Part shown: positions 5,256-45,930 of the stretch, piece after piece
Layout: every line of letters starts with the position of its first letter
Numbering within the stretch: the first letter of the stretch is position 1
Assembly (NCBI GenBank): GCA_013306675.1
Contig: JABLUY010000215.1
Coordinates: forward strand, 1 to 64,000
Source: Thraustochytrium sp. TN22
Taxonomy: Eukaryota > Sar > Bigyra > Thraustochytrida > Thraustochytriidae
DNA: 64,000 nt
Reading direction: 5' to 3'
The notes under the pieces: model-generated
Database searches by the model: none
Told to the model about the DNA's origin: nothing
What the model saw: only the letters and a program-made list of their open reading frames with translations
Translations under genes and position numbers: made by a program

Positions 5256-8200
5256 ATGTGGCCGGCCAGGGCCGCGCTTGCGGCGCTGCTGACGACAGCG
5301 CTGTCGCTGCTGGTGAGGAGCCGCGGCCAGAGCATCTATGGGTGCTTTTGCGATGATTCGGGCCTCTGCTCCGCGCCGTACCCGAGTACGACGACGAGCC
5401 TGAGTTGCGGGCATATGAGCGGGTGGCCGGACCTGCAGGGTCTCACGGCCTTAAAGACACTGTAAGTTCGGTTGGATTCTGGTCTCGAACACAGACGCCC
5501 AAGTCTTCGCTAACGTTCCTCGGATGGCAGACACTTGGCAGCTTACCCTGTCAATGGTAACGCGGAGTCTCCGATTTCCGAGGTCCACCCGAGCATCACC
5601 GACTTAACGGCGTTGGAGACGCTGTTCCTCGACCTGCAATTCTACCCCGGGAGCAGCAGCCTGCAGAAGGACATCTATACCACACTGACGACTCTAACTA
5701 GCCTGTAGGTCCTCACCAACTCACGCGAGCGCGGGCATGCAAGGAGACTGCGAGACTGACGCAGATCTGCGATAGGAGCGCCACCTATCTCTTTTCTACC
5801 ACCGGCCTTGACTCCTCCATCACCAGTCTCACGGAGCTGCGGACCCTCGTACTCAACAACAACGGCCTCAGTGGGGCCGATTCCCTGACGTCGCTGACCA
5901 GCCTGGGATCCACGCTCACGGCGTTGAACCTCAACAGCAACTGGATTACCAACCTTCCGGTTTCGCTGCTGAGCTCCCTGTCAAGGCTACGCACGCTGGA
6001 ACTCGCCCACAATGAACTGGCGCACCTATACGTGCCTCATCCGCGTGATTTGGAGCATCTCGATGTTGGGGACAACCAGCTCACTGGCCTAAATGCAGAG
6101 TACTCGATATACGCGATGCCCTCACTGACAAGCCTTAATGCTGAGCGAAACCAGCTCAGCGAGCTACCTTCTGGCCTCGAGCTGGGAGACAAGCTGCACA
6201 CTGTGTAAGTGCCAAACACGATCATTTGTGATTGAGTACCCTGAGGCCAGACGAGGACTAACAGCGGGCCGCCACGGCGAGACAGGAGGATCAGCAACAA
6301 CTATCTGAACGGCATGGGAGAGATTCTGGAGCAGCTCGGCGGCAGCCTCACTTACCTCCGTGCCGATGACATGCTTGACAGCAAGCCCAACCTCAACGTG
6401 CTCACAAAATTGACCTCGCTGACGTACCTCAATGTCAGCAACGACAAGATGGAATACCTCCCCGCTGGCTTCTCGGCGCTCTCCAACCTTGAGAGCCTGG
6501 ACCTGTACGGTAATCAGCTTCCGTCAGTGGACCTTCTCAGCACGCTGACGCGGCTCCGCATTGTGTACGTTGGCTCTTGTTGCATCCTAAAGACGGTTCC
6601 TCTGGAGACAAGATGAGCTAACGCGACTTGCGCCCTTGGCATGTCGCACAGCAACCTTGGCGGTCAGTCGTTAACCTCCCTCGAGCCGCTGCTTGCCTCC
6701 AGCGACACACTGGAGAGCTTGTCCATGGAAGGATGCGAGGTGTTCACCACCAGCGCTCTGGGCACCCTCAGCCACCTCACTCAGCTCCAGGCAATGTGCG
6801 TAGTTCAAAGGTAGTGCGAGCCCACGTAGTGCGAGCCCTTACCGCCCGCCTGCGCGCTCACGCGAATCTGACCGACTGACTGGCCAGCAATTCCCTTTCT
6901 CCTCACGACGCAGCGACGCATCCAACATGGATCTCTACGAGCTCCCGGCCGCCATCATGGAGCATCCCAGCCTAAGGGAGCTGACAGCGAGGAACAACAA
7001 GCTATCCTCAATCTCAGAGCTGCCCCCGACGCTCACATCGCTGTACGTTGGCCGGGCACCTCAAGATCGTCCAACCAAAACTAACGATGCGGCGTTCCAG
7101 CGACCTGCAGACCAACCTCTTCACGCGGGCGTCCGCCGCAGTCCCTGACTTCGCCAACTACAGTGCCAATGTTGAGTATCTTGGCATGTCCGGCAACTTC
7201 CTCTGCGGCGGGGTTGAGATTGCGCCGCCCTCCATGGTATTCACGCACGACTCCTACATCACCAGCTGTTTGCATTTCGCTCTCCTCCAAGCGCGCTTCT
7301 GTCCCACGGGTGACTGCGCTTACCCTCAAGCCGTTATGTACAACGAAGCGTCGTACAACACAGGTGTCTATGCCTCACGGGAAGACCTGACACCGATTCT
7401 TGACTCTCCAGGCCTTCCTGGTCGTGCCCTCCTCGTCGATGTGAAGCCTTATCCCGGCGTCTTTCTCAGCAACATTGAAATCTGGGATAATGATGGAGTC
7501 TTCGAGCCTGGTGATTGCGAGTCGTCGCGCGCCGCTCTCCTGCTGCCAGGTTCACACTTCCTCGTCCCCTACAACAAGCCGGAGCATGTTGTCAAGCTGC
7601 GTCGCCATCCCAACAGGACGGACGCGTGCGTCATCCGCTGGAACGGCCTCTTCCGGACCGCGGCCGACATCGATGAGGTCACAAGCTTTGCGGTTGGCCT
7701 TTTCCTAGCAGACGACTTCTTCCCGCCGCAGAGCCACCGCAACATCCAAATGAGGGTGGCACCTTCCGATCCTATCCTCACCATCGAAGATATCGTGGCG
7801 GGCTACAACTTTTATGCCGACGCGCCGCCCTCCCTCGCTGCCGACCACCGCAACTTCTCCTTCTCGCTGCGGCGCCACACCTTTGCGGCCGACGGCTGCG
7901 ACTTCCCACCCTACGTGCGGATGCAGATTGGCGACAACTGCGAGAAGATTGTCTGGCAAGACGAGGCGATCCCCGGTCTCTACGCGTACAAGATCCCTGC
8001 CGGGGAGTTCCACGCGGCCGTCTCAGAGTGCGTCACCAACGGGGCGAAGTGGATCGAGGACAACCGCGTCGTTCTCGATGTGGACGTGAGTGTTGTGACA
8101 CCCGTTCCGGACGCCTGCGGCGCGACGGACACGCCAGCCAACTTTCTCTCCAAGACAAGCTCTGTCTCCACCTTCACCGTGACTGCAAGCCGCTCCGACT

Positions 8201-8343
8201 CGAGTGCGAGTACATCTGGGCTCGCCGTTGCTGTGGCGGTCCTCGCAGTCGTCGACCTCGCGATGCTTGGTGGCATCGGCGTATATGCTCGGCGTATGCG
8301 TGCCAACCGAAGTACGCAGGTCGCCACTGCGATCCAGCCGTGA
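5256..8343 (+). CDS. LRR transmembrane protein, array copy 1
   Basis: Seven exons: 5256-5461, 5531-5704, 5776-6204, 6286-6564, 6652-6795, 6914-7042, 7101-8343, giving 867 residues with all introns in phase 2. The protein has a signal peptide (residues 1-25, ALAALLTTALSLLV), a short Cys-rich segment (CFCDDSGLC), LRRs over about 60-470 (for example LTALNLNSNWIT, LEHLDVGDNQLT, LESLDLYGNQL), a Cys cap starting NFLCGG, a conserved membrane-proximal module of about 300 residues (ILTIEDIVAGYNFY, FSLRRHTFAADGC), one TM helix at about 827-849 (GLAVAVAVLAVVDLAML) and an 18-residue basic tail. It should be a type I surface protein with its LRRs outside the cell. No kinase, TIR or death domain is present, so signalling would need a partner. 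The start was chosen because it gives the signal peptide and is shared by all copies. Confidence 0.9.
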
Positions 8344-10568
8344 CGGAGGGGAGAAGCCACGAAGGAGTCACCTGCCTCTGTCGTTGCGTTGGGCAAGCAC
8401 TGTCACCTGCGGTAGCTGTGGTGGTTTTCGAGCCGGCTCGGGCTCGGAGAAATCGGCTGGCGTCAACACGGCGCGGCGTCGAGCCAAGACTGCGACGTGT
8501 GGCTGCGGTGCTCGCAGCCGCACGAGCCCGGCGCTGCGCCGCGCCGCGCCTGCCGTAGCCCCAGCGCACCTGCTAGACCTGGCATTCGCTCCAGGCTAAG
8601 CATAACCTTATCATCTATCGAAGAGCAGGGAGAGGAGGCCGATGAGGTCGCCAAGGCCGCGAGCGTTGCAGAGCCGTACGGCCGCTATAGGAGTGAGCCC
8701 GCAGGACACGATGCTGGCTGGCCTTGTGCGCGAGCGGATACTTGATGTAGGTGCCCGGGATGAGGCGGATGAGGTAGCCGAGCGCGCATGCCCCAGGCCC
8801 GACGCGGATGCGCAGATAGCCGCCGCCGGCGCGGCGCAGGATGGTTTCGGCCGTGCGCTCGGGCGTTGTCAAGTCGAGACTCTCAAACACCTGGGTGGCC
8901 TTGTCGCGGTCCACCGAGGCCACGACCTCAGCGTTCCGCATGATGCTGGTCTTGATGAAGCCTGGGTGCACAAGAGTTTGTCCTCCTTGGACTAGAGCTG
9001 GAGAGCGCAGATACTCGCTCCGTTCCATGCGGCCTAGCTGTTGACCAGCCCCTTGGCGTGGCCGGCCCAGAGCCATCGAACGCACAAGTCAAGAAGTTTG
9101 AAGATTCAGATTTCAAGCAATTACTTGCGAGTGATGAGGTGAGTGCATTGTCACAGTATCCGAGTCCCGCTCACACAGCCTCACAGCTTGCCGCCACTTG
9201 CACAGGCACCAGGACAGCCAACAGCAGGACAACGTGCACGCAGTGTTGCACCGCGCGTCGCCAAGCGCAGTTCGAGTTGAGGCGAGTGAGTGATGTGGCT
9301 AGCTAGTCCGAGTCGTGGCGTGGCTGCGCTCGACAGGATGCCGCCGCCGCGACAGCTGCCGGCCATGGCAAGAGACTCATGGTACCAGGCTGGCAGGCCA
9401 GGCCTGCCTGTGCCTTCCCAGTCTGCGGCACTGCGCGGGCCCGGCCACAGCCCGAACTCGGCGTCCTTTCTGCCAGTGGGCAGCCACTCTGCGGCACTCT
9501 TCGATGGAATTAGTGCCGACATCTCACCGTCTGTCAGGCTGCGGCTGCGGCGCACTGGCAGCCGGCGCCCAATAAGCGCGGAGGCTTCAGGCCTGCCATT
9601 GCTCTTGCTAAAGCAACTTTGGTTGATTTCCTCATGTCAGACTGAGTGCCGCGGCCAGGCCAGTGCCTGCGGCACTGCACTCCGGCCATCGTGTGGTCTG
9701 AGTCAGATTCAGGGGTAATCGGGTTTCGCCTCGCCAGCGGCAGGCACGAGCCCCCTGCCCTGCCACTGGCACTGGCAGTGGGCCGTGGGCTCCTGGCAGG
9801 CTCCCGGCGGCCGCTTGGCGTCGCTCGCGTTGGCCGTCCGGCTGCGGCCCGTGCACTGCAGTGGCCACCGTCCACGCCCGCCCACTGCTGCATTCGAGGC
9901 CGCCGAGACATGCCCTGTGACTGATCTGGCAGGGCCTGCACCAGCGCCGCCTTGCACACGCACGCCGTGCAGTGCAGTGCACTGCACGGCACTGCCTGGC
10001 GCACGAGCCATGGCCAGCCTGAGTTGCAGCGATGCTAGCTCAGGCTGCAGCGCTACCCTTTGCGAATCTTGACTCGACTCGGCGGCGCACTGTGACAGCG
10101 CGAGGACTACTGGCAGAGCGGACCCGTCCGCCATGGCCGACGGAAGGCCGGGCGCGGCGGCCCGGTACCCCAACTACTAAGAACTACTAGGCCTAAGCTT
10201 ACCTAACTTACCATGGTACGACCGGGACGGCGCCTGCACGGATGCACACACACGGCTGCAGCCTTCGGACCTCTCTGGCTCTTACTACAACTTGAAGCCT
10301 TTGAGAGCAGCAGACCGTGGCCCTCCGGGCCACGTTGAGGCCGTGTCACGCGCGGCGCCGCGGAAAGTACAGGCACTGGCAGGCAAGCAGCGACGGTAGA
10401 GCAGCCGCTGGCAGGGCCGGGCTTGGCAGGGCTAGGCCTGGCAAGCTGAGCAGACCGCAATCAGAGCCGCGGGCGACATCTCGCGCTTGGTTTGGCACGG
10501 CGAGCTGAGCTGCGTAGGGTGCTTTCCTGCCGCGTGGTCAGCGCAGCGTTGCTGGCGACGCTGGGCCT
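8344..10568. other. Spacer between LRR-TM copies 1 and 2
   Basis: The first ~50 bp match the 3' flanks of the other copies. Homology then breaks at about 8392 and resumes near 9086, so about 690 bp are extra here and contain a dehydrogenase relic. Sequence from 9300 to 10568 is a diverged version of the spacers before copies 3 and 4, rich in CACTGCAGTG-type words (9955-9990) and ending in the conserved upstream block. No intact gene is seen. Confidence 0.7.
8615..9075 (-). pseudogene. C-terminal relic of a short-chain dehydrogenase/reductase
   Basis: Minus-strand translation shows the SDR C-terminal signature VHPGFIKTSIMRNAEV (8926-8973), followed by LTTPERTAETILRRAG, LRIRVGPGACALGYL and RLIPGTYIKYPLAHKAS. 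This matches SDRs in which the loop after strand beta-6 reads HPGxIKTxIxRNA. The Rossmann glycine motif, the catalytic YxxxK and the rest of the N-terminal half are absent. A possible earlier fragment, GHAKGLVNS, occurs in another frame near 9035-9065. It is a truncated, nonfunctional fragment, most likely carried in with the ~690-bp extra segment. Confidence 0.65.
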
Positions 10569-13500
10569 ATGTGGCCGACCAGGACCGCGCTTGCGGCGCT
10601 GCTCACGACAGCTCTGTCGCTGCTGGTGAGAAGCCGCGGCCAGAGTTGCTATTGCGATGGCGGCTACACCAGCTGCAGCGCGCCGTTTCCGAGTACGACG
10701 ACGAGCCTGAGATGCTCGTGGATGAGCGAGTGGCCGGATATGCAGGGGCTCACGGCCCTGACCTTGCTGTAAGTTTTGTTGCATCGCTGGTCTCGATCAC
10801 CGACGCCCAAGTCTTCGCTGACGTTCCTCGGATGACAGACATTTGGAAAGCCCATTTTACGTCGGGGCTCCGGCCATTGCCCAGGTTCACTCGAGCATCA
10901 CTGACCTGTCCGCGCTGGAGACGCTGTCCCTCGCTTTCTTCTACGATTCCCCCGGGACCAGCATGCAGAAGGACATCTATGCCTCTCTGACAACTCTGAC
11001 TAGCCTGTAGGTCCTCGCCAACTCACGCAAGCGAGCGCGAGCTCAAGCGCGTGCATGCGACGGGATTGCGAGACTGACGCAGATCTGCGATAGGAGCGCC
11101 ACCCGTCTCTTTGACGCCGGCCTTGACTCCTCCATCACCAGACTTACCAGCCTGCGGACCCTCGCACTCCATGCAAGCCGGGTGAACACGGTCGCGTCCC
11201 TGACATCGCTCACCACACTAGGTCTACTGGAGGACCTCACTATTAGCGACGCATATCTCACCGGGGCCCTGCCAGTGGCGTTGACCACGCTGGGATCCAC
11301 GCTTACGGCATTGAACCTCAACTACAACTCGATCACCAGCATTCCGAGCTCGCTGCTGAGCTCCCTGACGAACCTACGCAGGCTGGACCTCGCTGGCAAT
11401 GACCTCTCCTCTCTGACTCTGCCGGCTTCTCTGAGTACGGTGGAGCACGTCGAGCTTTCGCACAATCAACTCACCCTGCTCGGAGGCTCTTACATGCCCT
11501 CCCTGACAAGCCTCCACGTTGAGCATAACCAGTTGAGCGAGCTGCCCGATGGTCTCGCGACGGCCCACGGGCTGCAAACTCTGTAGGTGCCAAACTCGAT
11601 CTTTGGCGGGTGAGTACCCTTACGCCAGACGAGGACTCACAGCGGGCCGCAACGGCGAGACAGGAGGATCAGCAACAACTATCTGCACGGCATGGCAAGC
11701 ATTCTGGCACAGCTTAGCGACAGTCTCGTGCACCTCAGTGTGGATAACATGGCTGACACCAAGCCCAACCTCGACGTGGTCACCAGCTTGACCGCGTTGA
11801 CGTATCTCGATGCCGGCGACGACAAGTTGGATGACCTTCCCCCTGGCTTCTCGGCGCTCTCCAATCTCGAGCACCTGGACCTGGAGGGGAATGAGCTTCT
11901 CTCAGTGGACCTTCTCAGCACGTTGACGCGGCTCAGCGTTGTGTACGTTGGCACTGGCTTGCATCATGATCAACGGTTCCTCTCGCGACAAGATGATCTA
12001 ACGCGACTCACGCCCTCGACATGGCTCACAGCAACCTTGGCCGTCAGTCGTTGACCTCCCTCGAGCCGCTGCTCGCCTCGAGCGACACACTGGTGAGCTT
12101 GTCCATGCTAGGATGCAAGGCATTGACCATCAGCGCTCTGGGCACCCACAGCCAGCTCACTCCGCTCCAACCCCTCTGCGTAGTTCCCCTGTACTGCGAG
12201 CCCCTGCCCTCCCGCTTGCGCGCCCACACGAGTCCGATCGACTGACCGGTCAGCGATTCTATTCTCTCTCTCCTCACGACGCAGCGAAGCATCCGAAATG
12301 GATCTCTACGAGCTCCCAGCCGCCATCATGGAGCATCCCAGCCTCACACAACTGACGGCGAGATACAACAAGCTATCCTCCATATCGGCGCTGCCGTCGA
12401 CGCTCCGACGTCTGTAGGTTGGCCGGGCATCTTCGAGAGAAGCGTGTCACACGAAACCTAACCCGATTCGTTGTCCCAGCGAACTGTACGACAACTACTT
12501 CACGCGGGCGTCCAACGCAGTCCCTGGCTTCTCCAACAGTAGCACCAGTGTTTGGTATCTTGGCTTGCGCAAAAACTTCCCCTGCGGCACGCCTGAGAGT
12601 GCGCCGCCGTCCATGACCTTCTATCACGACGATTACATGCCCAGCTGCCAACATGCAGATCTCTTCCGAGCGCGCTTCTGCCCCAGTAATGCGTGCCCAT
12701 ACTATGAAACCTGGGAAATCGACACAGACCTGGGCGACAACACTTACCTTGCCTCAACCGGTGACCTGGCGGAGGTTCGTGACTCTTCAGTCTTTTATGG
12801 CCAGGCCGTCTTTGCCTACCTGGAGCCCCCTCGCTTCACCCCCCTTCGCAGCGTTGAAGTAACGTCTCCGTACGGAATCTTTGGGCCTTACGACTGCGTC
12901 TCGGCGCGTGCAGTGCTTCTGCAGCCAGTCGCAGAAGCCGTCGTTCCCTACAACAAGCCGGAGCAAGTTGTCACGCTGCGTTCCCATCCCTCCAGGCCGG
13001 ACACGTGCATCATCAGCTGGGACGGCGTCTTCCGGACCGCGGCCGACATCGATGAGGTCACAAGCTTTGTGATTGGCCTCTTCATGGGATCCGAGTTCTT
13101 CCCGGATCGTGGGTACTACTACGGAACCACAGTGCGCTCCCTCCAAGTAAAGTCGGTAACGTCCGATCCCATCCTCACCATCGAAGACATCGTGGCGGGC
13201 TACAACTTCTACGTCGACGCGCCGCCCTCCATCGCGTCAGACAACCGCAACATCTCCTTCTCGCTGCGGCGCCACACCTTTGCGGCCGAAGACTGTGCCT
13301 TCCCACCGTATGTGCAGATGCAGATCGGCGACAGCTGCGAGAAGATTGTCTGGCAAGACGAGGCGATCCCCGGTCTCTACGCGTACAAGATCCCTGCCGG
13401 GGAGTTCACGGAGTGCATAACCAACGAGGCCAAGTGGATCGAGACCAACCGCGTTGAACTCGACGTTGAGGTGAGGGTTGTGACACCCGTTCCGGACGCC

Positions 13501-13731
13501 TGCGGCGCGACGGACACGCCGGCCAACTTTGTCAACGAGACACGCTCTGTCTCCACTTTCACCGTGACTGCAAGCCGCTCCGACTCGACTCTCACGACCA
13601 TTTCTGGACTCGCCGCCGCCGTGGCGGTCCTAGCGGTGATCGTTCTCGCGCTGCTCGGTGGCATCGGCGTCTATGCTCGGCGTATGCGTGCCGACCAAAC
13701 CATTCAGGTCGCCACCGCGGTCCAGCCGTGA
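10569..13731 (+). CDS. LRR transmembrane protein, array copy 2
   Basis: Exons 10569-10768, 10839-11006, 11094-11582, 11664-11942, 12032-12175 (or to 12190), 12285-12413 and 12480-13731; about 886 residues. The architecture is as in copy 1: signal peptide MWPTRTALAALLTTALSL, CYCDGGYTSC, LRRs (LTALNLNYNSIT, VEHVELSHNQLT, LEHLDLEGNELL), Cys cap NFPCGTPE, conserved membrane-proximal module, TM helix with VAVLAVIVLALLGGIGVY, and tail RRMRADQTIQVATAVQP. The intron-5 donor, GTGCGTAG in copies 1, 3 and 4, reads CTGCGTAG here (12176). A GTACTG 15 nt further on would keep the frame and add five residues. Sequence 12211-12917 is indistinguishable from copy 4 across exons and introns, pointing to gene conversion. 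Function is as inferred for copy 1. Confidence 0.88.
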
Positions 13732-15407
13732 GGAGAGAAGGCACGAAGGACTCACTTCCCTCTGTCGTTGCGTGAGTTTGATGCCTATCAAGAAGTTTCA
13801 AGATTCAAGCAAACCCTTGCGTGTGAGATGAGTGCACCTTCCCAGCTCGCAGCTCGCCGCTGCTAGACAAGCACCAGGAGAGCTTGCGGACCGCGGACAG
13901 CGCGACAACGGCCACGCAGTGTTGCGCCGCCCGTCACAAGCGCGCCTCGAGTTGAGGCGAGGCTGTGCCGCGCTTGCGAGCCGGGCGCCGCATGAAAGGG
14001 GCTCTTCTTGAATGGTCACGCGCCTGGCTGCAGCCGCCGTGCAGTGATCGTGCTGTATTGAATCATCTCGCCGTGTCTGCGTTCAACAGGATGCCGCGGC
14101 CGCGACAATCTGCCATGACAAGAGACTCATGAATGTAGGAGGGGAACCACGTACCTGGCTTGCCTGTGCCTTGCCAGTTTGCGGCGCTGCGGCTATGGCC
14201 CAGGACCCGGCGTCTTTCCCGGGCAGCGACTCTGCAGCGCGCCGCTCTGTGAGACCACTGTGACGGCGGAGTCAGCCCAGTCTGTCTGAGAGCGTCTGAC
14301 TGCCAGAGGCTATGCAGCAGAATCCCGCGAAGGTTCCTTCGTCGACAGCAACCCACAGGGCAGGCCTGCCAGAAGGCTACTCTTGCGAAAGCAACGTTTT
14401 TTATTCTTTTCGTCACGGTGCCAGTGGCCGCAATGCCAGCGGCCTGGGCCTTCTTCTCTGTGGTCAGCGGGTGTCGCCTTCAAGTTGCCAGCGGCGGCCA
14501 CGAGTCCACTGACGACCAGGTCACCGTCCTCAGGCTGCCAGTGGGCCGTGGGCTCCCGGCTTCCGCCGACCGTGACGGCCGCTCGGCCCGCGTCGCTGGC
14601 GACTGGCCGTCCGGCGGCTGACTGCCACTGCAATGCGGCTGGCCGTCCGGCGGCTGACTGCGGCCCCTGCCTGCACTGCAGTGCAGTGGCCATGGAAGCC
14701 ACTGCCAACGCCCGCCTACTCAGGCTTGCTTGCACTGGCAGGCGAGGCCGAGGAATGCTCTGGCAGGGCGCGCGCGCAACGCGCCGCCAGCGACTGCCAG
14801 TGGCGCACGAGCCAGCTGCGGCGCTACGCTTTTGCGAATCTGAGTCTTGACACGTGACACGGTCGAACCTGCCAGTCCGCAATCTGTGCCGTCAGTGAGA
14901 GGACTACGGGGGCTAACTTACAAGTAGGCTAGCTAGGCCTAGGCTAGTACGTACTAACTGTAAGTGGTGACTACCCCCGCGGCCGGGCGCGGGCCACCTA
15001 CAGCGCCTTGTGGCGCGCGCCAGCGGCACGGATGCACGCATTGCTCGGGCCACCACCATGCATGACCACTGCTGCAAGCATGCCCCGCAGGCTGGGCGCC
15101 GCGTGCTGCTCCGTCACGGTAGCTGACAGGCTGTACTTACTACCATAACCTCTCCGGGCGGGGGCAACTTGAAGTTGAAGACCGCGTCACGCGCGGCGCC
15201 GCGGAGACAAGCAGGCAAGCATCGACTCGGACGGTAGAGAGTGCCAGCCACTGGCGGTGCCGGGCAAGGCTAGGCCTGCCAGTGGCAAGCAGACCGCAAT
15301 CGGAGCCGCGGGCGACATCTCGCGCTTGGTTTGGCACGGCGAGCCGAGCTGCGTAGGGTGCATTCCTGCCGCGTGGTCAGCGCAGCGTTGCTGGCGACGC
15401 TGGGCCT
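13732..15407. other. Spacer between LRR-TM copies 2 and 3
   Basis: No gene is seen. The first 700 bp closely resemble 18576-19250 after copy 3, including the run CGCGAAGGTTCCTTCGTCGA near 14327. The middle contains TGCACTGCAGTGCAGTGG-type words (14670-14690) and a single GCGCTACGCTTTTGCG word (14820). The last ~110 bp before the ATG match the other copies. Long apparent reading frames on the minus strand are GC-driven and are shared between spacers only because the DNA is duplicated. Confidence 0.7.
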
Positions 15408-18400
15408 ATGTGGCCGACCAGGACCGCGCTTGCGGCGCTGCTCACGACAGCGCTGTCGCTGCTGGTGAGAAGCCGCGGCCAGAGTTGCTATTGCGATGGC
15501 TCGATCAGGTGCAGCGCGCCATTTCCGAGTACGACGACGAGCCTGAGTTGCACGTGGATGAAAGAGTGGCCGGACGTGCAGGGGCTCACGGCCCTGAACT
15601 CGCTGTAGGTTTGGTTTCATCGCTGGTCTCGATCACCGACGCCCAAGTGTTCGCTGACGTTCCTCGGACGACAGACACTTGGACAGCCCATCTTACGTCG
15701 GGGCTCCGGTCATTGCCCAGGTTCACTCGAGCATCACTGATCTGTCCGCGCTGGAAACGCTGTCCCTCGACTTCTTCGGCGGTTTTCCCGGGACCAGCAT
15801 GCAGAAGGACATCTACACCACACTGACGACTCTGACTAGCCTGTAGGTCCTTGCCAACTCACGCGAGCGAGCGCGAGCTCAAGCGCGGGCATGCGACGGG
15901 ATTGCGAGACTGACGCAGATCTGCGATAGGAGCGCCACCCGTCTCTTTGACGCCGGCCTTGACTCCTCCGTCACCAGACTTACCAGCCTGCGGACCCTCG
16001 CACTCGATAAAAGCATTGCGAACACGACCGAGTCCCTGATGTCGCTCGCCACACTGAATTCTCTGGAGGACCTCACTCTAAGCGGAGCAGGTCTCACTGG
16101 GGCCCTGTCGGTGGCGCTGACCACGCTGGGATCCACGCTTACGGCATTGAACCTCAACGACAACTCGATCACCAGCATTCCGAGCTCGCTGCTGGGCTCC
16201 CTGACGAACCTACGGAGCCTGGAACTAGCCGACAATGACCTTTCCTCTCTACGTCTGCCGGATTCTCTGAGCGTGGTGGAGCACCTCAACCTTCGGGACA
16301 GCCGACTCACACTGCTCGAAGGATACTACGTGCCCTCGCTGACAAGCCTCCACGTTGAGCGAAACCAGCTGAGCGAGCTGCCCGATGGTCTCGCGACGGC
16401 CCACGGGCTGCACACTCTGTAGGTGCCAACCTCAACCATTGGCGGGTGAGTACCCTTGCGCCAGACGAGGACTAACAGCGGGCCATAACGGCGAGACAGG
16501 ACGATCAGCAACAACTATCTGAACGGCATGGCAAGCGTTCTGGCGCAGCTTAGCGACAGTCTCATGTACCTCAGTGTGGATCACATGGCTGACACCAAGC
16601 CTAACCTCGACATGGTCACCAGCTTGACCGCGTTGACGTATCTCAATGTCGCTCTCGACAAGATGGATGACCTTCCCCGTGGCTTCTCGGCGCTCTCCAA
16701 CCTCGAGCGCCTGGACTTGTACGCGAATGAGCTTCTCTCAGTGGACCTTCTCAGCACGTTGACGCGGCTCAGCGTTGTGTACGTTGGCATTGGCTGCAGC
16801 ACGGAAAACGGTTCTTCTTGCGACAAGATGATCTAACGCGACTCACGCCCTCGACATGGCTCACAGCCACCTTGGCGGTCAGTCGTTGACCTCCCTCGAG
16901 CCACTGCTCGCCTCGAGCGACACACTAGAGCGCTTGCTCATGGGAGGATGCAAGGCATTGACCACCAGCGCTCTGGGCACCCTCAGCCACCTCACTCGGC
17001 TCCAATCTCTGTGCGTAGTTCAACTGTACTGCGAGCCCTTGCCCGCCCGCTTGCGCGCCCACGCGAGTCCGATCGACTGACCGGTCTGCGGTTCAATTCT
17101 CTCTCTCCTCATGGCGCAGCGAAGCATCCAATATGGATCTCTACGAGCTTCCAGCCGCCATCATGGAGCATCCCAGCATCACGATCCTGGACGCGACGTA
17201 CAACAAGCTATCCTCCATCTCGGCGCTGCCGTCGACGCTCGAAGAGCTGTACGTTGGCCGGGCATCTTCGAAAGAAGCGCGTCACACGGAAACTGACCCG
17301 ATTTGTCGTCCCAGCAAACTGCGCAATAACTACTTCACGCGGGCGTCCAACGCAGTCCCTGACTTCTCCAACAGCAGCACCAGTGTTTGGTATCTTGACT
17401 TGCAAGACAACTTCCTCTGCGGCACGCCTGAGAGTGCGCCGCAAACCATGAGCTTCTATCACGACGATTATCTCACGAGCTGCCAACCTGCAGATCTCTT
17501 CCGTGCGCGCTTCTGCGGCAATACTGCGTGCCCATACTATGGACCCTGGGAAATCGACAAAGACCTGGGCGGCCTCACTCACTCTATCTCAACCGTCTAC
17601 CTGGAGGAGGTTCGTGACTCTTCACTTTTTGATGGTCAGGCCGTCGTCGCCTACCTGGAGCCCCCTCGCTTCACCTCCCTCAGCAGCGTTGAAGTCACGG
17701 AGGCAGAAGAAACCTTTGGGCCAGGCGACTGCGCGTCGGCGCGTGCAGTGCTTCTGCAGCCAGTCGCAGAAGCCGTCGTTCCCTACAACAAGCCGGAGCA
17801 AGTTGTCACGCTGCGTTCCCATCCCTCCAGGCCGGACACGTGCATCATCAGCTGGGACGGCGTCTTCCGGACCGCGGCCGACATCGATGAGGTCACAAGC
17901 TTTGTGATTGGCCTCCTCATGGGAACCGACTTCTTCCCGGAACCTGCGAACTACTACGGAACCTACGGAACCACATATCGCGCGCTCCAGGTAAGGTCGG
18001 TAACCTCCGATCCCATCCTTACCATCGAAGACATCGTGGCGGGCTACAACTTCTACGTCGACGCGCCGCCCTCCATCGCGTCAGACAACCGCAACATCTC
18101 CTTCTCGCTGCGGCGCCACACCTTTGCGGCCGAAGACTGTGCCTTCCCACCGTATGTGCAGATGCAGATCGGCGACAGCTGCGAGAAGATTGTCTGGCAA
18201 GACGAGGCGATCCCCGGTCTCTACGCGTACAAGATCCCTGCCAGGGAGTTCACGGAGTGCGTAACTAACGAGGCCAAGTGGATCGAGGCCAACCGCGTTG
18301 AACTCGACGTTGCGGTGAGTGTTGTGACACCAATTCCGGACGCCTGCGGCGCGACGGACACGCCGGCCAACTTTGTCAACGAGACACGCTCTGTCTCCAC

Positions 18401-18575
18401 CTTCACCGTGACTGCAAGCCGCTCCGACTCGACTCTCGCGACCATTTCTGGACTCGCCGCCGCCGTGGCGGTCCTAGCGGTGATCGTTCTCGCGCTGCTC
18501 GGAGGCATCGGCGTCTATGCTCGGCGTATGCGCGCCAACCAAAACGTTCAGGTCGCCACTGCGATCCAGCCGTGA
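15408..18575 (+). CDS. LRR transmembrane protein, array copy 3
   Basis: Exons 15408-15604, 15675-15842, 15930-16418, 16500-16778, 16867-17010, 17120-17248 and 17315-18575; 888 residues, phase-2 introns throughout, all donors and acceptors canonical. Signal peptide MWPTRTALAALLTTALSL, CYCDGSIRC, LRRs such as LRSLELADNDLSSL and LERLDLYANELLSV, Cys cap DNFLCGTPE, membrane-proximal module, TM helix and tail RRMRANQNVQVATAIQP. It has the longest variable loop of the family (FFPEPANYYGTYGTTYRAL, about 17934-17988) at a site where the four copies differ in length. The segment from 17750 to 18530 is nearly identical to copy 2, while exons 5 to early 7 differ, a mosaic pattern. It is probably a surface recognition or adhesion protein; no ligand can be inferred. 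Confidence 0.9.
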
Positions 18576-20132
18576 GGAGAGAAGGCACGAAAGAGCCACG
18601 AGTTGCGTTGAGGCAGATGCGCATCAAGAAGTTTCAAGATTCGTATTCCAAGCAAAACCTTGCGTGTGAGGTGAGTGCATCTTCCCAGCTCGCAGCTCGC
18701 CGCTGCTAGACAAGCACAGGAGAGCTTGCGGACCGCGGACAGCGGGACAACGGCCACGCAGTGTTGCGCCGCCCGTCACAAGCGCGCCTCAAGTTGAGGC
18801 GAGGCTGGGCCGCGCTTGCGAGCCGGGCGCCGCATGAAAGGGGCTCTTCTTGAATGGTCACGCGCCTGGCTGCAGCCGCCGTGCAGTGATCGTGCTGTAT
18901 TGACTCATCATCGCGCCGTGTCTGCGTTCGTCAGGATGCCGCGGCCGCGACAACCTGCCACGACAAAAGACTCATGAATGTAGGGGAACCACGTACCTGG
19001 CTTGCCTGTGCCTTGCCAGTTTGCGGCGCTGCGCGGCTATGGCCCAGGACCCGGCGTCTTTCCCGGGCAGCGACTCTGCGGCGCGCCGCTCTGTGAGACC
19101 ACTGTGACGGCGGAGTCAGCCCAGTCTGTCTGAGAGCGTCTGAGAGGCTATGCAGCAGAATCCCGCGAAGTTTCCTTCGTCGAAAGCAACCCACAGGGCA
19201 GGCCTGCCAGTAGGCTACTCTTGCGAAAGCAACTTTGATTTTTTTCAAACCAGTGGCCGCAGTGCCAGCGGCCGGGGCCTACTCTGTGGTCAAAGAGCGG
19301 CGGGCACGGGTCCACTGACGACCGGCCGGGGTCGCCGCCCTGCCAGTGGGCCGCGGGCTCCAGGCTCCTTGGGGGCGCTTGGCGCGCGTCGCTAGCGGCT
19401 GGCGGTCCGGCGGCTGACTGCGCCCCCTGGTAGCCACAGCACTGCGCCGCCCCGGCCACTGCACGTGCACCGTTGCGCGGCAATGCACCGCCACCGTGGC
19501 TAGCCACTGACGAGCCAGCTACGAGTGACGAGTCACGGCGGCCGCCGCTAACTACGCTTTTGGCAATGCAGTACTGCGGCCACTGGCAGTGCAGTACCAC
19601 TGCACGGCCGGGCGACTCTTGACTCTGTGAAGTGTGACTACGACTTTCGAAGACCCGGGCGGGCCGGCCACGGCCAGTGCGGGCACTGCACTGCACTGCA
19701 CTGCCAGCGCTGCAGTGCCCAACTGGCGGCGCGGACTCGGACCCGTCACCCCGCCCGGCGGCGGCGGTGCCGCCGTGGTACCCCCCACCTACGGCGCCGT
19801 CGGGCGGCCCGTCGCGCGCCAGCCGCACGGATGATGCACGGGCCACCACCGTGACCACTGCCCAGCCTGTGCCGCGGCCAGTGCAAGCAAGTGACTGGCT
19901 GTACTTCCTGCCCGGGCCATTACCTCCTCTCCGGGCGGGGGCAACTTGAAGTTGGAGGCCGCGTCACGCGCGGCGCCGCGGAGACATGCAGAGCCAGGCA
20001 AGGCAGGCCTGGCAAGCAGACCGCAATCGGAGCCGCGGGCGACATCTCGCGCTTGGTTTGGCACCGCGAGCTGAGCTGCGTTGAGTGGCACTCCTGCGTG
20101 GTCGGCGCAGCGTTGCTGGCGACGCTGGGCCT
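18576..20132. other. Spacer between LRR-TM copies 3 and 4
   Basis: No gene is seen. It is homologous to 13732-15407, with short indels. It includes an uninterrupted GCACTGCACTGCACTGCACT run (19682-19703) and, before the next ATG, the conserved block ending GCGACGCTGGGCCTATGTGG. Confidence 0.7.
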
Positions 20133-23100
20133 ATGTGGTCGACCAGGGCCGCGCTTGCGGCGCTGCTCACGACAGCGCTGTCGCTGCTGGTGAGAAGCCG
20201 CGGCCAGGCGTGCACGTGCGATGTCTACACCCGCTGCAGCGCGCCGTTTCCAAGTACGACGACGAGCCTGAGTTGCTCGGACATGAGCGAGTGGCCGGAC
20301 GTGCAAGGTCTCACGGCCCTGACCTCGTTGTAAGTTTGGTTGCATCGCTGGTCTCGATTACCGACGTCCAAGTCTGAGCTGACGTTCCTTGGATGACAGA
20401 GACTTCTACAGGGCTACGATTCCCCAGGTGCACTCGAGCATCACTGACCTGTCCGCGCTGGAGACGCTGTCCCTATACTTCGTCCACGGCTTCTTCGGGA
20501 GCAGCATGCAGAAGGACATCTACACCTCACTGACGACTCTGACTAGCCTGTAGGTCCTCGCCAACTCACGCGAGCGAGCGCGAGCTCAAGCGCGGGCATG
20601 CGACGGGATTGCGAGACTGACGCAGATCTGCGATAGGAGCGCCACCCGTCTCTTTGACGCCGGGCTTGACTCCTCCATCACCAGACTTACCAGCCTGCGG
20701 ACCCTCGTGCTTGATTCAAGCATTGCGAACACGGCCGAGTCCCTGACGTCGCTCGCCCAACTAAATCTTCTGGAGGACCTCACCATTACCTACGCAGGTC
20801 TCACTGGGGCCCTGCCAGTGGCGCTGACCACGCTGGGATCCACGCTCACGGCAATGAACCTCAACTACAACTCGATCACCAGCATTCCGAACTCGCTGCT
20901 GAGCTCCCTGATGAAGCTACGCAGGCTGGAACTCTTCGACAATGACCTATCCTCTCTGACTCTGCCGTCTTCCCTGAGTACGGTGGAGCACGTCGAGCTT
21001 TCGCACAATCAACTCACCCTGCTCGGAGGCTCTTACATGCCCTCCCTGACAAGCCTCCTGCTTTGGGGAAACCAGCTGAGCGAGCTGCCCGATGGTGTCG
21101 CAACGGCCCGCGGGCTGCACACTTTGTAGGTTCCAAACTCGATCTTTGGCGGGTGAGTACCCTTACGCCAGACGAGGACTCACAGCGGGCGACAACGGCG
21201 AGACAGGTTGATCAGCCAGAACTATCTGAACGGCATGGCAGGCGTTCTGGCACAGCTTAGCGACAGTCTCGTGTACCTCAGTGTGGATAACATGGCTGAC
21301 ACCAAGCCCAACCTCGACGTGGTCACCAGCTTGACCGCGTTGACGTTTCTCGATGCCGGCGACGACAAGTTGGATGACCTTCCCCGTGGCTTCTCGGCGC
21401 TCTCCAACCTCGAGCACCTGGACCTGGAGGGGAATGAGCTTCTCTCAGTGGACCTTCTCAGCGCGTTGACGCGGCTCAGCGTTGTGTACGTTGGCACTGG
21501 CTTGCATCATGATCAACGGTTCCTCTCGCGACAAGATGATCTAACGCGACTCACGCCCTCGACATGGCTCACAGCAACCTTGGCCGTCAGTCGTTGACCT
21601 CCCTCGAGCCGCTGCTCGCCTCGAGCGACACACTGGTGAGCTTGTCCATGCTAGGATGCAAGGCATTGACCATCAGCGCTCTGGGCACCCTCAGTCACCT
21701 CACTCAGCTCCAACACCTGTGCGTAGTTCAACTGTACTGCGAGCCCCTGCCCGCCCGCTTGCGCGCCCACACGAGTCCGATCGACTGACCGGTCAGCGAT
21801 TCTATTCTCTCTCTCCTCACGACGCAGCGAAGCATCCGAAATGGATCTCTACGAGCTCCCAGCCGCCATCATGGAGCATCCCAGCCTCACACAACTGACG
21901 GCGAGATACAACAAGCTATCCTCCATATCGGCGCTGCCGTCGACGCTCCGACGTCTGTAGGTTGGCCGGGCATCTTCGAGAGAAGCGTGTCACACGAAAC
22001 CTAACCCGATTCGTTGTCCCAGCGAACTGTACGACAACTACTTCACGCGGGCGTCCAACGCAGTCCCTGGCTTCTCCAACAGTAGCACCAGTGTTTGGTA
22101 TCTTGGCTTGCGCAAAAACTTCCCCTGCGGCACGCCTGAGAGTGCGCCGCCGTCCATGACCTTCTATCACGACGATTACATGCCCAGCTGCCAACATGCA
22201 GATCTCTTCCGAGCGCGCTTCTGCCCCAGTAATGCGTGCCCATACTATGAAACCTGGGAAATCGACACAGACCTGGGCGACAACACTTACCTTGCCTCAA
22301 CCGGTGACCTGGCGGAGGTTCGTGACTCTTCAGTCTTTTATGGCCAGGCCGTCTTTGCCTACCTGGAGCCCCCTCGCTTCACCCCCCTTCGCAGCGTTGA
22401 AGTAACGTCTCCGTACGGAATCTTTGGGCCTTACGACTGCGTCTCGGCGCGTGCAGTGCTCCTGCAGCCAGTCGCAGAAGCCGTCGTTCCCTACAACAAG
22501 CCGGAGCAAGCTGTCACGCTGCGTTCCCATCCCTCCAGGCCGGACACGTGCATCATCAGCTGGGACGGCGTCTTCCGGACCGCGGCCGACATCGATGGTG
22601 TCACAAACTTTGTGATTGGCCTCTTCATGGGAGTCGAGTTCTTCCCGGATTCTGCGGACTACTACGGAACCCCACTTCGCTACCTCCAGGCAAGGTCGGT
22701 AACCTCCGATCCCATCCTCACCATTGAAGACATTGTGGCGGGCTACAACTTCTACGTCGACGCGCCGCCCTCCATCGCGTCAGACAACCGCAACATCTCC
22801 TTCTCGCTGCGGCGCCACTCCTTTGCGGCCGAAGACTGTGCCTTCCCACCGTATGTGCAGATGCAGATCGGCGACAGCTGCGAGAAGATTGTCTGGCAAG
22901 ACGAGGCGACCCCCGGTCTCTACGCATACAAGATTCCCCCCGGGGAGTTCGACGCGGCCGTCACGGAGTGCGTAACCAACGAGGCCAAGTGGGTCGAGAC
23001 CAACCGCGTTGAACTCGACGTTGAGGTGAGTGTTGTGACACCTGTTCCGGACGCCTGCGGCGCGACGGACACGCCGGCCAACTTTGTCAACGAGACACGC

Positions 23101-23283
23101 TCTGTCTCCACCTTCACCGTGACTGCAAGTCGCTTTGACCCTCTCGCGACCATTTCTGGACTTGCTGCCGCCGTGGCGGTCCTAGCGGTGATCGTTCTCG
23201 CGCTGCTCGGAGGCATCGGCGTCTATGCTCGGCGTGTGCGTGCCAACCAAACCGTCCAGGTCGCCACTGCAATCCAGCCGTGA
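20133..23283 (+). CDS. LRR transmembrane protein, array copy 4
   Basis: Exons 20133-20329, 20400-20549, 20637-21125, 21207-21485, 21575-21718, 21828-21956 and 22023-23283; 882 residues. Signal peptide MWSTRAALAALLTTALSL, CTCDVYTRC, LRRs (LTAMNLNYNSIT, LRRLELFDNDLSSL, LEHLDLEGNELLSV), Cys cap NFPCGTPE, membrane-proximal module, TM helix and tail RRVRANQTVQVATAIQP. Exon 2 is 18-24 nt shorter than in the other copies. From exon 4 into exon 7 it tracks copy 2 rather than its neighbour copy 3. Its variable loop reads FFPDSADYYGTPLRYL. All splice sites are canonical. It is the last direct copy and converges on the inverted member at 24273-26908. Confidence 0.9.
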
Positions 23284-24272
23284 GGAGAGAAGGCACGAAA
23301 GAGCCACTGTCGTTGCGTTGAGTTTGATGCAAATCAAGGAGTTTCAAGATTCAGATTCCAAGCAAAGCCTTGTGTGTGAGGCGAGCAGCGTGCCGCCGCT
23401 TGTCCAGGCGCCTTGACAGCATAAAATTTTGGCAAATCCTTGCGCGTGAGGTGAGCAACGTGCCGCCGTTTGCACAGGCGCCAGGACAGCATAACTTGTT
23501 AATAGTTGGCTGACAGCGTGACACCGGCCACGCGGTGTTGCGTCGCGCGTCACCAAGCGCGGTTTGACTTAGTTGGGGCGAGGACGTGCCGCGCTTGCGA
23601 GCAGGGCGCTGCATGAAAGGAGCTTTTCTTGAACAATGATGCGCCTGGCTGCAGCCGCCGTGATCGTGCTATGGCCAGTCACTGACCCATTCATCGCGAC
23701 GTGGCTGCTCTCGACAGGATGTCATCGCCGTGGCAGCCTCTTATGGCCAGAGGCTCATGATTGTGATGAAACCAGGTAACGTAGCACCCTGGATATCTAA
23801 CGTTTTGTACGCGGCCTTGGCCGTCGGCTGGCCGTCGGCTGGCCAACCGGACGGGCAACTTAAGGACTGTCCTCGCTGGTCTGCATGTTTCTTCGTTCTC
23901 ATCCGGTGCGAGAAAATCCGCGCTCCAGCTCCTGCTCTCGCTCCGTCCGCGCTCTGTGTGACGAATAACGAGCTCTTACTGCAAGCACCCAGCGGGCCTC
24001 ATCTCAATCGTGGGCTGCACGCCCTCGTCATCTCCATTGACCGGCCCAGCCCCATGCGTCCAATCCAGCTACAGGACGTGCTGGACTCCGGGTCTGACTC
24101 GGGGAGTGTCCCGATTGCCACCGTCATCGAAGTGAACCAATTGAACGAAGATTTGTTGAAATGTTGAACGAGACTGTGTCCTTGCCGTGCTCGCGTGGCG
24201 AGGAGAAGAGGGGAGAAGAAGGAAATGGGCGCGGGGCGGAGGCGGGGCCGAATCGCTGCCGGCGCGAGCTTC
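23284..24272. other. Convergent spacer between copy 4 and the inverted member
   Basis: It begins with the usual array 3' flank. The block TTTGGCAAATCCTTGCGCGTGAGGTG-like (23430 onward) repeats the preceding 23340-23410 element, so the 3'-flank block is doubled here. No gene is seen; both neighbouring genes end toward it. Confidence 0.65.
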
Positions 24273-26908
24273 TCACACCTTGGACGAGGTTGCAACGACA
24301 GCAGCGTCGTCGCGACGACGGATGCGCGCTTTAAGCTGGCCCAAATGCACCAGGCCTCTCTGCAAAAGCGAGGCATCTGTGGGACTCTTGTCGCTCGTCG
24401 AGACTTCGCCACCGCTGCTGCTGCCGCCGCCGCTGCTGCCGCCACCGCCGTTGCCATCGCCGCCGTCGACACCACGAAGTCTGCGCCGGCGCCGCCAGAC
24501 CAGAAAGCCCGCCACGCCCAGCACGAGAAGGGTAGAAAGGACAGATCCCGCGATGACTCCGGCGTCCGAGCCGGCATCGCCCGTTGTGAGCCGCGATGCC
24601 GCCACGGTGAAGCTGCTGGACGAGCGCGTCTGGTCCACGTATCCTGCAGGCGTGCCATCGGCGCCGCAGCCAGCCGCCATGGGGGCCAGCACGCTCGCCT
24701 CCAGGTCCAGCACGACGCTGTCGTCTGAAATCCACTTGCTCGCGGCGACGCAAGTCGAGATGGTCGCGTCGAGGTCGCCACTTGCGATTTCAAAGACGTA
24801 CAGACCTGGATGGCTCGCGTCCTGGAGCAGTACGGTCTCATTGCAGCTCTCGCCAATGACGAGCTGCACGCTGGGCGGGTAGGTGCAGGCGCCTGCCGCA
24901 AAGGTGTGGCGTCGCAGCGCAAAGGAGATGCTGGACCTGTCGTCGGCGAGCGAGGGCGCCGCGTCAACGTAAAAGTTGAAGCCCGCCACGATGTCCTCGA
25001 CGGTAAGGATCTCCTCGGCGCTTTGCACGAGGGTCACGGTCCGGTTTGCCAAGGACTCGGTCACAGCTCTCGCACCGGCGGCAGAGGCGGAGTCGAAGAA
25101 ATCCTCGGCGAAGAAGAGGCCGATTGCCGGGTCCCGCACGGCCTCTAAGTCAGCTTCGTCAGCGAAGACGCCGTCCCAGCGCGCGACACATGCGCGGGGA
25201 TTGGATTCATGCTGGGCCAGGCTCACCACGTGCTGAGGCTCGTAGAATGGCACGACGGCATCCGAGGAGGGCTGCACGAGGACTGCCACAGAGTTGGAGC
25301 AAGAGGCAGCCTCTGCATCAACGGCGATTTCGATGTTGGTGAGTGAAGTCCCGTTCGGAAATTCAATGTAGGCAAAGGTGAAGTTCCCAGTCGATGGAAA
25401 GCTACTGTCCTGCACCTCTGTCATGGCGAGAGGCGAAAGCTCCGCGGGGTCGCTGAAGCTCAGCTTCTCCGTCGAACAGCCCTCCCAGCTACCGCAGAAC
25501 AGCCTGATTAAAATATCGGAGAAGGCGCAGGAAGGCCCGAAGGCCAGTTCAGAAATGTAGAACTTGGCCTTTTGGTACGTCTCGGTGCTGTCGCAGAGCC
25601 AATTGTCCTTCAGATTGATGTTCAGAAAGTTTGAGCCATTATAACCCTGAGTTGCATGCTCAATCTTCGTGAAGAGATTCTCGTTCAAATATCTGCGTTG
25701 AAAACGTAGTCGTCAGAGATGAACTTCGCACGCGTGCGATATGCAGCTTACAGTGCGGTGAGTGAATAGGGAAGCCTCAGGTTGGAAAAGGACGAAAGCT
25801 TGTTCGACTGAAGATATATACTCCGCATGGCGGGAAGCTCTCCGACGGCCTCCGGGACGAGTCGTAGGCCTAGACCCTGGAGTCTGAGTTTGATGATGCT
25901 CTCAAAATTACGGAGAGTATCAAGCTTGTCCACGGAGAGGCCCGGGTTCTCACTGAGCTCTCTGCAGGTGTGTGATCGCGCATGGAGAAAGTCAGCGAGC
26001 GCAGAGCATCGTCGTCGAAAGGCGCGGCAGCCTGAACGTACAGAGTTGTCAGCTTACTGAGAAGGCTGATGCTGTCGAGTGAAGAGATGTTTGTGTCCTT
26101 TAGAGTCAGCTGCTGAAGATTCGTCATCGTGTTGAGCGCGCTCAGTTCGCCGAGCTTCGAGTTCCCATCGAGGCTTAGGTGAAGTAGGGAATCTAGGGAC
26201 GCCCCAAAGGTTGACAGGCTCGCAAGGTCTGCTTGAGCCAGGTTGGCGGAAGACAGAACAAGTTTGGTCAGCAGGCTCAGCGCGCTCAAGCCGGAGAAGG
26301 CCCCGGGGGAACCTCCACCGCCTAGGTTGTTGAAACTAAGATCGAGTCTTGTGAGCAGGCTCAGGCCCGAGATGCTGCTCGCCAGCCCTGTGCTCGTGAC
26401 GCCCATTGCGGTCCTGTGAACCAAATCACCGTAAAGTGTCAGTGGTGCGCGCCGCTCTCATACGCAATACCAACCTACAGTTCGCTCAGGGTAGTGAGTG
26501 TATAGATCGCCTCTTGCAGTTCGCCGCTTGGGTATTCCACCAAATCGAGCTTTAGCTTTTGGATTGAGGTCAAGCCAGCAATGCTGGGATGCGCCGTGTT
26601 GAATGAGGACGTGCCGATGGAACTGTGTAATGGATGGATTTGACGTTCAAGTGCGTTGTGAGTTTTCTCGCATGGCCTCGCCGGCCCGGATATACTGAGG
26701 CCACCTACAGATAGGTCAGGTCTCCGAGGTTGGTCACGTCAGGGAAGCTCAGCTCCGACGAGCACTCCAGGTCCTTGGTCACGGCCGGAAACGGCGAGGA
26801 GCACCCCACATCATCGCACGTGCACGAACCCTCCACAGTAGCGACCAACACCGACATCACCAACGCCAGCGCCGCCTGCGCTATGCCCACCACCCGCGCT
26901 GGCATCAT
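24273..26908 (-). CDS. LRR transmembrane protein, diverged inverted member
   Basis: Five exons on the minus strand: 26709-26908, 26479-26622, 26042-26413, 25752-25961 and 24273-25692, all phase 2; 781 residues. Signal peptide MMPARVVGIAQAALALVMSV, then CTCDDVGCSSPFP as in the array, LRRs (LLTRLDLSFNNLG, LLHLSLDGNSKLG, MRSIYLQSNKLSSF), Cys cap DNWLCDSTE, the same membrane-proximal module (ILTVEDIVAGFNFYVDAAPS, FALRRHTFAAGACTYPP) and a TM helix (GVIAGSVLSTLLVLGVAGFL). Unlike the array copies, the cytosolic tail is long (about 75 residues): RRRRR, then a Gly/Ser-rich stretch, then DASLLQRGLVHLGQLKARI. It has two introns fewer than the array genes. It is an older paralogue, and the longer tail could contact cytosolic partners (inference). 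Confidence 0.88.
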
Positions 26909-30563: not shown

Positions 30564-30596
<33 letters not shown>

Positions 30597-33503: not shown

Positions 33504-33987
33504 GGTCGTCCCGGCACCTGCCGGCACCTGCCGGAGCGCGCGCGCGACGCGGCGGCCTCGCCTCTGCCCGCCTCGCCTCGCTGCGCGGCCGCCGCCGCCG
33601 CGCGCCACGCCGCGCCGCGCCGCGCCGCGCCGTGCAGTTGGCCGTCTGCCTGCCTTCGTGCGAGCGAGAGAGAGAGAATGAGAATGCGGCGGTCGTCGCC
33701 GCCGAGGCGCAGGCGCGCGGGTCATGCAAGCCCTCCGCGCAGACCGCCAACTCCGACGGCGACGGCGCGCCTGCGAGTCGAGTCGAGCCGAGCCGAGTCC
33801 AGTCGCGTCGTCCCGGGCGAGCGCAGCGCAGCGCCGAGCGGCAGGCAGGCAGGCCAGCGAGCTCGCACGCGCGCCACTCTCTGCGCACGCGCTGCGCGCC
33901 GTCGCCCGCGGCGGTGGAGGTGGAGGTGGAGGTGGAGGTCGCCGCCGTGCAGAGCGAAGAGACTAGGCCAGGCAGGCCGGAGGAGAT
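33504..33987. promoter_or_regulatory. Divergent intergenic region with CCGCG and GGTGGA repeats
   Basis: 484 bp between two head-to-head start codons, so both promoters must lie here or extend into the leaders. It contains a CCGCG pentamer run (33607-33633), a GA run (33665-33677) and a hexamer run GGTGGA (33912-33939). No TATA-like element is evident. Confidence 0.55.
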
Positions 33988-38961: not shown

Positions 38962-39400
38962 CCGCCTGCGCGCCGCTGCCTTCGACCGCCACCCGCCCCA
39001 CGACGCCGCGCGCGCGCGCCGCTGCGCCGCCGCCGCCGCCGCCTCCGCCTCCTCCTTGTCTTTGGGTCTGCCGCCGCCGCCTACGCCGCGGAGCCACCGC
39101 GCGCGACTGCGCCTTGAGCGCTCGGTCGCGGGCGACGCCGCCATGCCTCGCCGCGCGCCCGCCCCGCCCCGGCGCCTTGGCGCGCCGCGCCCCGCGCGCG
39201 CCGCCTGGCCGCGCCCCGCGGGCGCCGCAAAGCGCGCCTCGCCTCGGCCCGCCCCGCCGCCGCCGCCGCCGCAAAGCGCGCCGCGCGCCGCGCGCGCCGC
39301 CATCCCACGGCCGCGCCGGCACGCGCGCGCCGCCATCTTGGGACCTGCGCAGGCCCTGCGGCCACGAGCGGACATGCGCGGTTGCCGGGCCCGCCCGCGG

Positions 39401-45794: not shown

Positions 45795-45887
45795 TGTGCT
45801 TTGTTGTTTGTAGGTTTGGGTTTTGTTTCCTCTCGATTCGGATCTGCTGTAGCTCGAGACGGGCGAGGCAGGCCGTGGCGGCTCGTA

Positions 45888-45930
<43 letters not shown>

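Follow-up and report, generated by a model that had tools for sequence, protein, structure and literature searches.

What do the tandemly repeated leucine-rich repeat (LRR) genes of the thraustochytrid Thraustochytrium sp. TN22 do? They lie in positions 1 to 64,000 of contig JABLUY010000215.1 (assembly GCA_013306675.1), a stretch of 64,000 nucleotides that we refer to as the window. The genome comprises 37.9 Mb in 453 contigs; the contig with the array is labelled C128 in our analysis, and other contigs are labelled likewise (C403, C241, etc.). To our knowledge, little is known about immunity, partner choice, or virus resistance in this protist lineage. We consider it rather likely that the array encodes receptor-like surface proteins, with an LRR head that would act on a changing ligand and a constant base that would couple to partners. 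The copies are as follows.

5256..8343, plus strand: copy A, 7 exons, 867 amino acids; signal-peptide-like N-terminus, Cys cap, LRRs, D1-D2 block, transmembrane (TM) segment, short tail
10569..13731, plus strand: copy B, 7 exons, 886 amino acids as modelled; intron 5 donor CT
15408..18575, plus strand: copy C, 7 exons, 888 amino acids
20133..23283, plus strand: copy D, 7 exons, 882 amino acids
24273..26908, minus strand: copy E, inverted relative, 5 exons, 781 amino acids, longer tail than in A-D

A preliminary description of this DNA had reported four direct copies plus one inverted relative, with all introns in phase 2, and both claims are confirmed. Repeat analysis of the window yielded direct-copy spacings of ~5.4, 4.8, and 4.7 kb and also inverted matches, one arm of which is at 24812-25023, and the spliced models of A-E give open proteins of 781-888 amino acids. 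There are six introns in each of A-D and four in E; all 28 are in phase 2, and 27 have GT-AG borders. The internal exons are 129-489 bp long in A-D and 144-372 bp long in E. Protein identity to A is 65% for B, 66% for C, 65% for D, and 37% for E, and A is the most diverged of the direct copies. The remaining intron, intron 5 of copy B, begins with CT instead of GT. An alternative donor, GT at 12191, used with the same acceptor, yields a 94-nt intron and keeps the frame, being one of seven in-frame GT-AG pairs. As judged from its splice signals, copy B may be either functional or broken. A 15-bp tandem repeat (4480-4644) is located immediately upstream of the array.

Each of the five proteins is comprised of an N-terminal hydrophobic stretch, a Cys-rich cap, LRRs, a C-terminal block of ~350 amino acids, a TM segment, and a tail, and all five are likely type I membrane proteins. 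Of this layout, as proposed earlier, the LRRs were recovered by Pfam (families LRR_4, LRR_8, and LRR_14) in all proteins, and hydropathy revealed a single strong C-terminal TM segment in each (mean 2.27-2.88). The N-terminal hydrophobic stretch is also present in all five (score 1.24-2.23), but in B, C, and D it does not rise above the internal maximum (1.41-1.43), and for this reason we infer the signal peptide from the sequence only. Similarly, the tail of 18 residues fits A-D but not E, where 74 residues follow the window of peak hydropathy. Pfam yielded no ROC-COR match in the five proteins, and no kinase either in these proteins or in nine scanned frames that represent 8 of the 13 relatives found elsewhere in the genome (see below). 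The motif LxGxIP or GxIP is found in none of the five proteins. GxxxG is absent from the TM segments of A-D and present in that of E. Enrichment of GxxxG in the TM segments of the family was rejected (5/10, shuffle P = 0.21); the segments were chosen by eye from 13 genes, and 10 distinct ones were counted.

The changes among the copies are concentrated at the concave face of the LRRs. Here, we considered 11 LRR starts of the LxxLxLxxN type, found by the motif in all four copies A-D. The starts at columns 94, 100, 151, 260, 356, 414, and 511 (found in one or two copies) and at column 472 (three copies, overlapping 462) were dropped, while the start at 404 was kept, though it possibly has no real beta strand. 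Comparison of B, C, and D showed amino acid changes in 29 of the 44 columns at the concave face, versus 85 of 370 other LRR columns (Fisher P = 1.9e-8) and 7 of 55 core columns. Since the motif itself selects for core residues, the conservation of the core columns is partly built in; neither the contrast with other columns nor the register control is affected. In this control, mask offsets of -12 to +12 columns gave 3 to 17 variable columns, compared to 29 in register. With A included, 31 of 44 concave and 143 of 345 other LRR columns are variable (Fisher P = 3e-4). The proportion of nonsynonymous differences (pN) at concave columns, 0.33-0.40 in B-C and C-D, is well above the intron divergence of the same pairs, 43/501 (0.086) and 42/501 (0.084), respectively. 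At other LRR columns, with pN of 0.097-0.108, there is no such excess over introns.

The membrane end of the proteins is formed by a block shared by all copies. It was delineated in copy B and matched to B in the others.

12574..13728, plus strand: membrane-proximal block of copy B, with C-cap, D1 (variable), D2 (conserved), TM segment, and tail
7195-8340: the block in copy A
17409-18572: the block in copy C
22117-23280: the block in copy D
24480-25565: the block in copy E

That this shared module belongs to no known family, as had been suggested, holds in the libraries searched (Pfam and PDB sequences). The C-terminal ~350 amino acids after the LRRs yielded nothing above the Pfam cut-off in the five proteins, and a profile of the block had no convincing match among PDB sequences (best E 0.64, NTF2; the rest weaker). 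The related C403-type block (see below) matched pilin among PDB sequences with E 7.4e-4. None of 46 pattern matches to the module in viral contigs and none of 204 in bacterial and archaeal genomes was confirmed. Structure prediction, which the preliminary description had named as a check on the module, was run on five sequences with AlphaFold2 and gave a block model of low confidence (predicted local distance difference test, pLDDT, 60; predicted template-modelling score, pTM, 0.52); trimming the block made it worse (pLDDT 54.7). The model suggests two beta-rich domains and a TM helix, with D1 at ~46-190 and D2 at 194-330 in the numbering of A's block. Foldseek with the low-confidence model (pLDDT 60) found four matches with E up to 0.001, all of them T-cell-receptor chains with TM-scores of 0.16-0.17; an Ig-like domain pair is one candidate for the fold. 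The origin of D1 and D2 by internal duplication is unproven: hhalign, with C284a left out, gave probability 0.8% and E 0.031 over 36 columns, out of register, and the true pair was better than all 20 column shuffles (E 0.23-0.92).

The ratio of nonsynonymous to synonymous divergence (dN/dS) was estimated by region for the six pairs of A-D. It is 0.69-0.89 in the LRRs, 1.32-1.39 in the C-cap (five pairs, as B and D are identical there), and 0.88-1.42 in D1. It is 0.27-0.47 in D2 and 0.19-0.70 in the TM segment plus tail. By these ratios, D2, the TM segment, and the tail are conserved and under purifying selection. For the C-cap and D1 pooled, bootstrap P was 0.043 (A-C) and 0.041 (A-D), while the Fisher test was not significant. 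In the proposed division of labor, a changing ligand outside the cell would be bound by the concave face of the LRR solenoid, perhaps together with D1, itself fast-changing. D2, the single TM helix, and the short tail would form a constant base, probably coupling to shared partner proteins for signalling. New specificities would arise via tandem duplication, gene conversion, and amino acid changes at concave-face residues.

Gene conversion is observed in the array, as are duplicated spacers.

12211..12917 in copy B, plus strand (ends at 22460 in copy D): tract of 707 bp identical in B and D, running from within the LRRs through the C-cap into D1
13820..14392, no strand assigned: spacer after B; its identity to the spacer that follows C is 95-99%, with partial likeness to that of D but not to that of A

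Within the 707-bp tract, 100 consecutive polymorphic sites separate C from B and D, which was reached in 0 of 5000 permutations; the tract is a product of gene conversion. Mosaicism, as claimed in the preliminary description, is thus clear for B-D, but weaker for B-C, where the longest identical run was reached in 22 of 5000 permutations, and absent for C-D (1121 of 5000). The claim of spacer duplication also stands in part: it applies to B and C and partly to D, but not to A, whose spacer is only 38-48% identical to the others over the stretch of ~13820-14392. In the final stretch ahead of the next copy, the A spacer is 78-85% similar to those of B and C, with many gaps.

A changed LRR stretch is seen in a pair of block-bearing genes on other contigs.

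C403, about 128165-135873: block-bearing gene, probable paralogue of the next by sequence comparison
C241:16345-23793: block-bearing gene, probable paralogue of the former

These genes are 97.2% identical over 2,625 bp, comprising the block, a PT linker, and the last LRRs, and 87.5% identical over 657 bp at the cap. The LRR stretch in between has no collinear match, just two 54-bp cross-matches at 83%. The explanation by haplotypes is disfavoured and paralogues are favoured, as matches of at least 100 bp are confined to ~7.5 kb of the 35-kb C241 contig and the remainder has no such match to C403:106500-154500, the region covered by the comparison. The C403 gene carries 11 near-identical LRRs of 69 bp that differ mainly at concave positions. 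There are 5, 5, 5, 5, and 3 residue types at positions 12, 13, 15, 17, and 18, two at positions 10, 14, 22, and 23, and one at the remaining positions beyond 9; positions 1-9 are invariant by construction, since the repeats were found by an exact nine-residue anchor.

In the whole genome, the block is present at 18 places, five in the array and 13 elsewhere, one of the latter being a remnant.

C111:577500-577822: frameshifted remnant, 68-76% identical, of a gene of the A-D type

The search with B's block yielded 18 rows, which comprise the five copies, two rows each for gene F (C453) and the C111 remnant, and distant matches, and the search with a distant block member yielded 11 places outside C128. 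One weak row, on C436 (E 6.9e-4), was excluded from the family count. Gene F, as read from its frames, has a similar N-terminus, a C-x-C-D cap, LRRs, and phase-2 donors split as CT|GT. On other contigs, identity to the LRR half of copy C is 36% or less (E up to 1e-6). In ten relative frames a hydrophobic segment is followed by basic residues, as judged by eye, and the Pfam PT family (PT-repeat linkers) is found on C206 and C409, linkers of this kind being in keeping with a stramenopile. No LRR match was found in the block-bearing frames of C206 and C84 that were scanned, upstream exons being outside the scan, and no Pfam match in the scanned frames of C94, C10, and C284, of which C10 is LRR-like by eye. 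From these frames, the block probably serves as a base for heads of different kinds.

Another LRR cluster, with frames on either strand, was observed at C409:182500-202300. Some of its frames contain a Cys cap and LRRs, others LRRs, a PT linker, and several hydrophobic stretches, and the block searches yielded no row there.

The array proteins could instead be adhesins, whose varied LRR faces would attach to the substrate or to like cells and pass no signal into the cell. The short tails of A-D, the lack of a signalling domain in the frames scanned, and the distant block versions on C206 and C84, whose frames lack an LRR match (again with upstream exons outside the scan), would fit this. Still, we find it unlikely, as the conservation of D2, the TM segment, and the tail suggests that the membrane end is more than an anchor, and plain attachment to a substrate would hardly call for per-copy change focused on concave residues. 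For receptor-like proteins, coupling to partners is proposed because no signalling domain was found, and base-partner signalling rests on the analogy with plant LRR receptor-like proteins (LRR-RLPs). According to PMC10834447, the latter, being kinase-less, rely on their TM and juxtamembrane regions for action and bring in the kinase SOBIR1.

Several results weigh against the receptor-like reading. At the concave codons of C-D, pN is 0.397 and the synonymous proportion (pS) 0.208, with nominal significance in the bootstrap (P = 0.016) and none in the Fisher test (P = 0.079); this is the only pair with such a signal, since the excess is not significant in B-C (P = 0.14; Fisher P = 0.50) and absent in A-C and A-D. 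When more motif columns are taken in, pooled pN/pS reaches 1.82 within the group of B, C, and D, but comparisons of A with these three give 0.74. Synonymous change at concave codons is raised as well (0.21-0.24), and therefore block exchange from unseen donors is possible. The dN-dS intervals for the C-cap and D1 taken separately include zero (three pairs bootstrapped), and the fold prediction of the block has low confidence. Moreover, whole-gene dN/dS is 0.68-0.88 in A-D pairs, copy B has lost a splice donor, and C111 carries a frameshifted remnant. The last three observations, together with the weak strict concave dN > dS, could also mean relaxed constraint after duplication, with redundant copies drifting at exposed LRR positions as the least important ones. 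This seems quite improbable to us, as the frames of A, C, and D are open, D2, the TM segment, and the tail are under purifying selection, and the concave pN in B-C and C-D exceeds intron divergence, which the other LRR columns do not.

A recognition role, which the preliminary description had put forward tentatively, is now supported by the concave-face change, the conserved membrane end, gene conversion, and the changed LRR stretch. A more specific version, which we put forward as possible but doubtful, is non-self or pathogen recognition evolved within labyrinthulomycetes, a germ-line counterpart of plant RLP clusters, with a constant D2-TM-tail base and interchangeable LRR heads. Duplication and gene conversion would then produce new heads, as would the replacement of entire LRR stretches and selection at the concave face. 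Recognition of mating types or partners in a sexual cycle would have a precedent in diatoms, where the mating-type-biased MRP2 and MRM2, kinase-less transmembrane LRR proteins, are proposed in PMC6261938 to be pheromone receptors or adhesion molecules. However, four direct copies and E adjacent in one genome do not by themselves suggest a mating-type switch, and we deem this reading very unlikely. If the receptor-like reading is true, diversifying surface recognition of the plant RLP kind arose separately in a single-celled protist lineage, and the array, if confirmed, is a defined locus for testing it. The family is marked by its undescribed membrane-proximal block, which could serve in searches for it in other protists.

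Further loci were noted in the window and on another contig.

28617-33725, minus strand: 1,702-amino-acid frame adjoining E; only a weak PqiA match, below the Pfam cut-off
35824-39375, minus strand: single frame in which Pfam finds EF hands together with PH and Ser/Thr kinase domains
42642-44060, 44721-45980, and 52109-53272, minus strand: three ketopantoate-reductase-like frames, the first by Pfam, the others alike by eye
47000-50884, minus strand: MULE transposase frame, lying between ketopantoate-reductase-like frames two and three
C124:29160-32300: ten tandem acyl carrier protein (ACP) domains in steps of 327 bp, in a 3,044-amino-acid frame

Nine of the ten ACP domains score 41.0 bits, and this equality suggests recent homogenisation. 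The frame has the layout of thraustochytrid polyunsaturated fatty acid synthases. From the sequence alone, a thraustochytrid affiliation would be read from this frame, as an 18-base rRNA pattern had no match.

Several known systems resemble the array in part. A literature search, with partial coverage (titles and abstract starts) that leaves absence unproven, found no published description of the family. Dictyostelium TgrB1/TgrC1 are polymorphic membrane proteins serving self/non-self recognition. Their binding domain is different from that of the LRR array proteins. In a Thraustochytrium transcriptome, relatively few LRR proteins are reported compared to other species (PMC8917795). Brown algal LRR-ROC-COR (ROCO) genes share phase-2 LRR exons with the array, and positively selected sites of ROCO are at the concave face (PMC11378527). 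By contrast, the array has no ROC-COR match, encodes proteins with one TM segment, and has LRR exons of 129-489 bp rather than single 72-bp exons. According to PMC2939053 and PMC6261938, non-oomycete stramenopiles have kinase-less LRR receptors, among them diatom MRP2/MRM2, that similarly combine LRRs and a TM segment without an attached functional domain. The array family is set apart by conversion and concave-face variation and, putatively, by the shared block at 18 places.

Plant Hcr9 genes vary at the concave face, and LxGxIP repeats are the plant-type LRR. Plant LRR-RLPs of the Cf-2/4/5/9, Hcr9, and RLP23 type are like the array proteins in having extracellular LRRs (a location that we infer here), one TM segment, and no kinase (PMC10834447, PMC9025879), and in forming clusters through tandem duplication (PMC9025879). 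Unlike them, the array proteins have no LxGxIP or GxIP, A-D lack GxxxG in the TM segment, two extra membrane-proximal domains are present, and the lineage is different. Judged by repeat type and TM motif, the array proteins fall outside the plant LRR-RLP family. By analogy, and with the same qualified confidence as for the receptor-like reading itself, the array would function in the manner of plant LRR-RLPs while not belonging to them.

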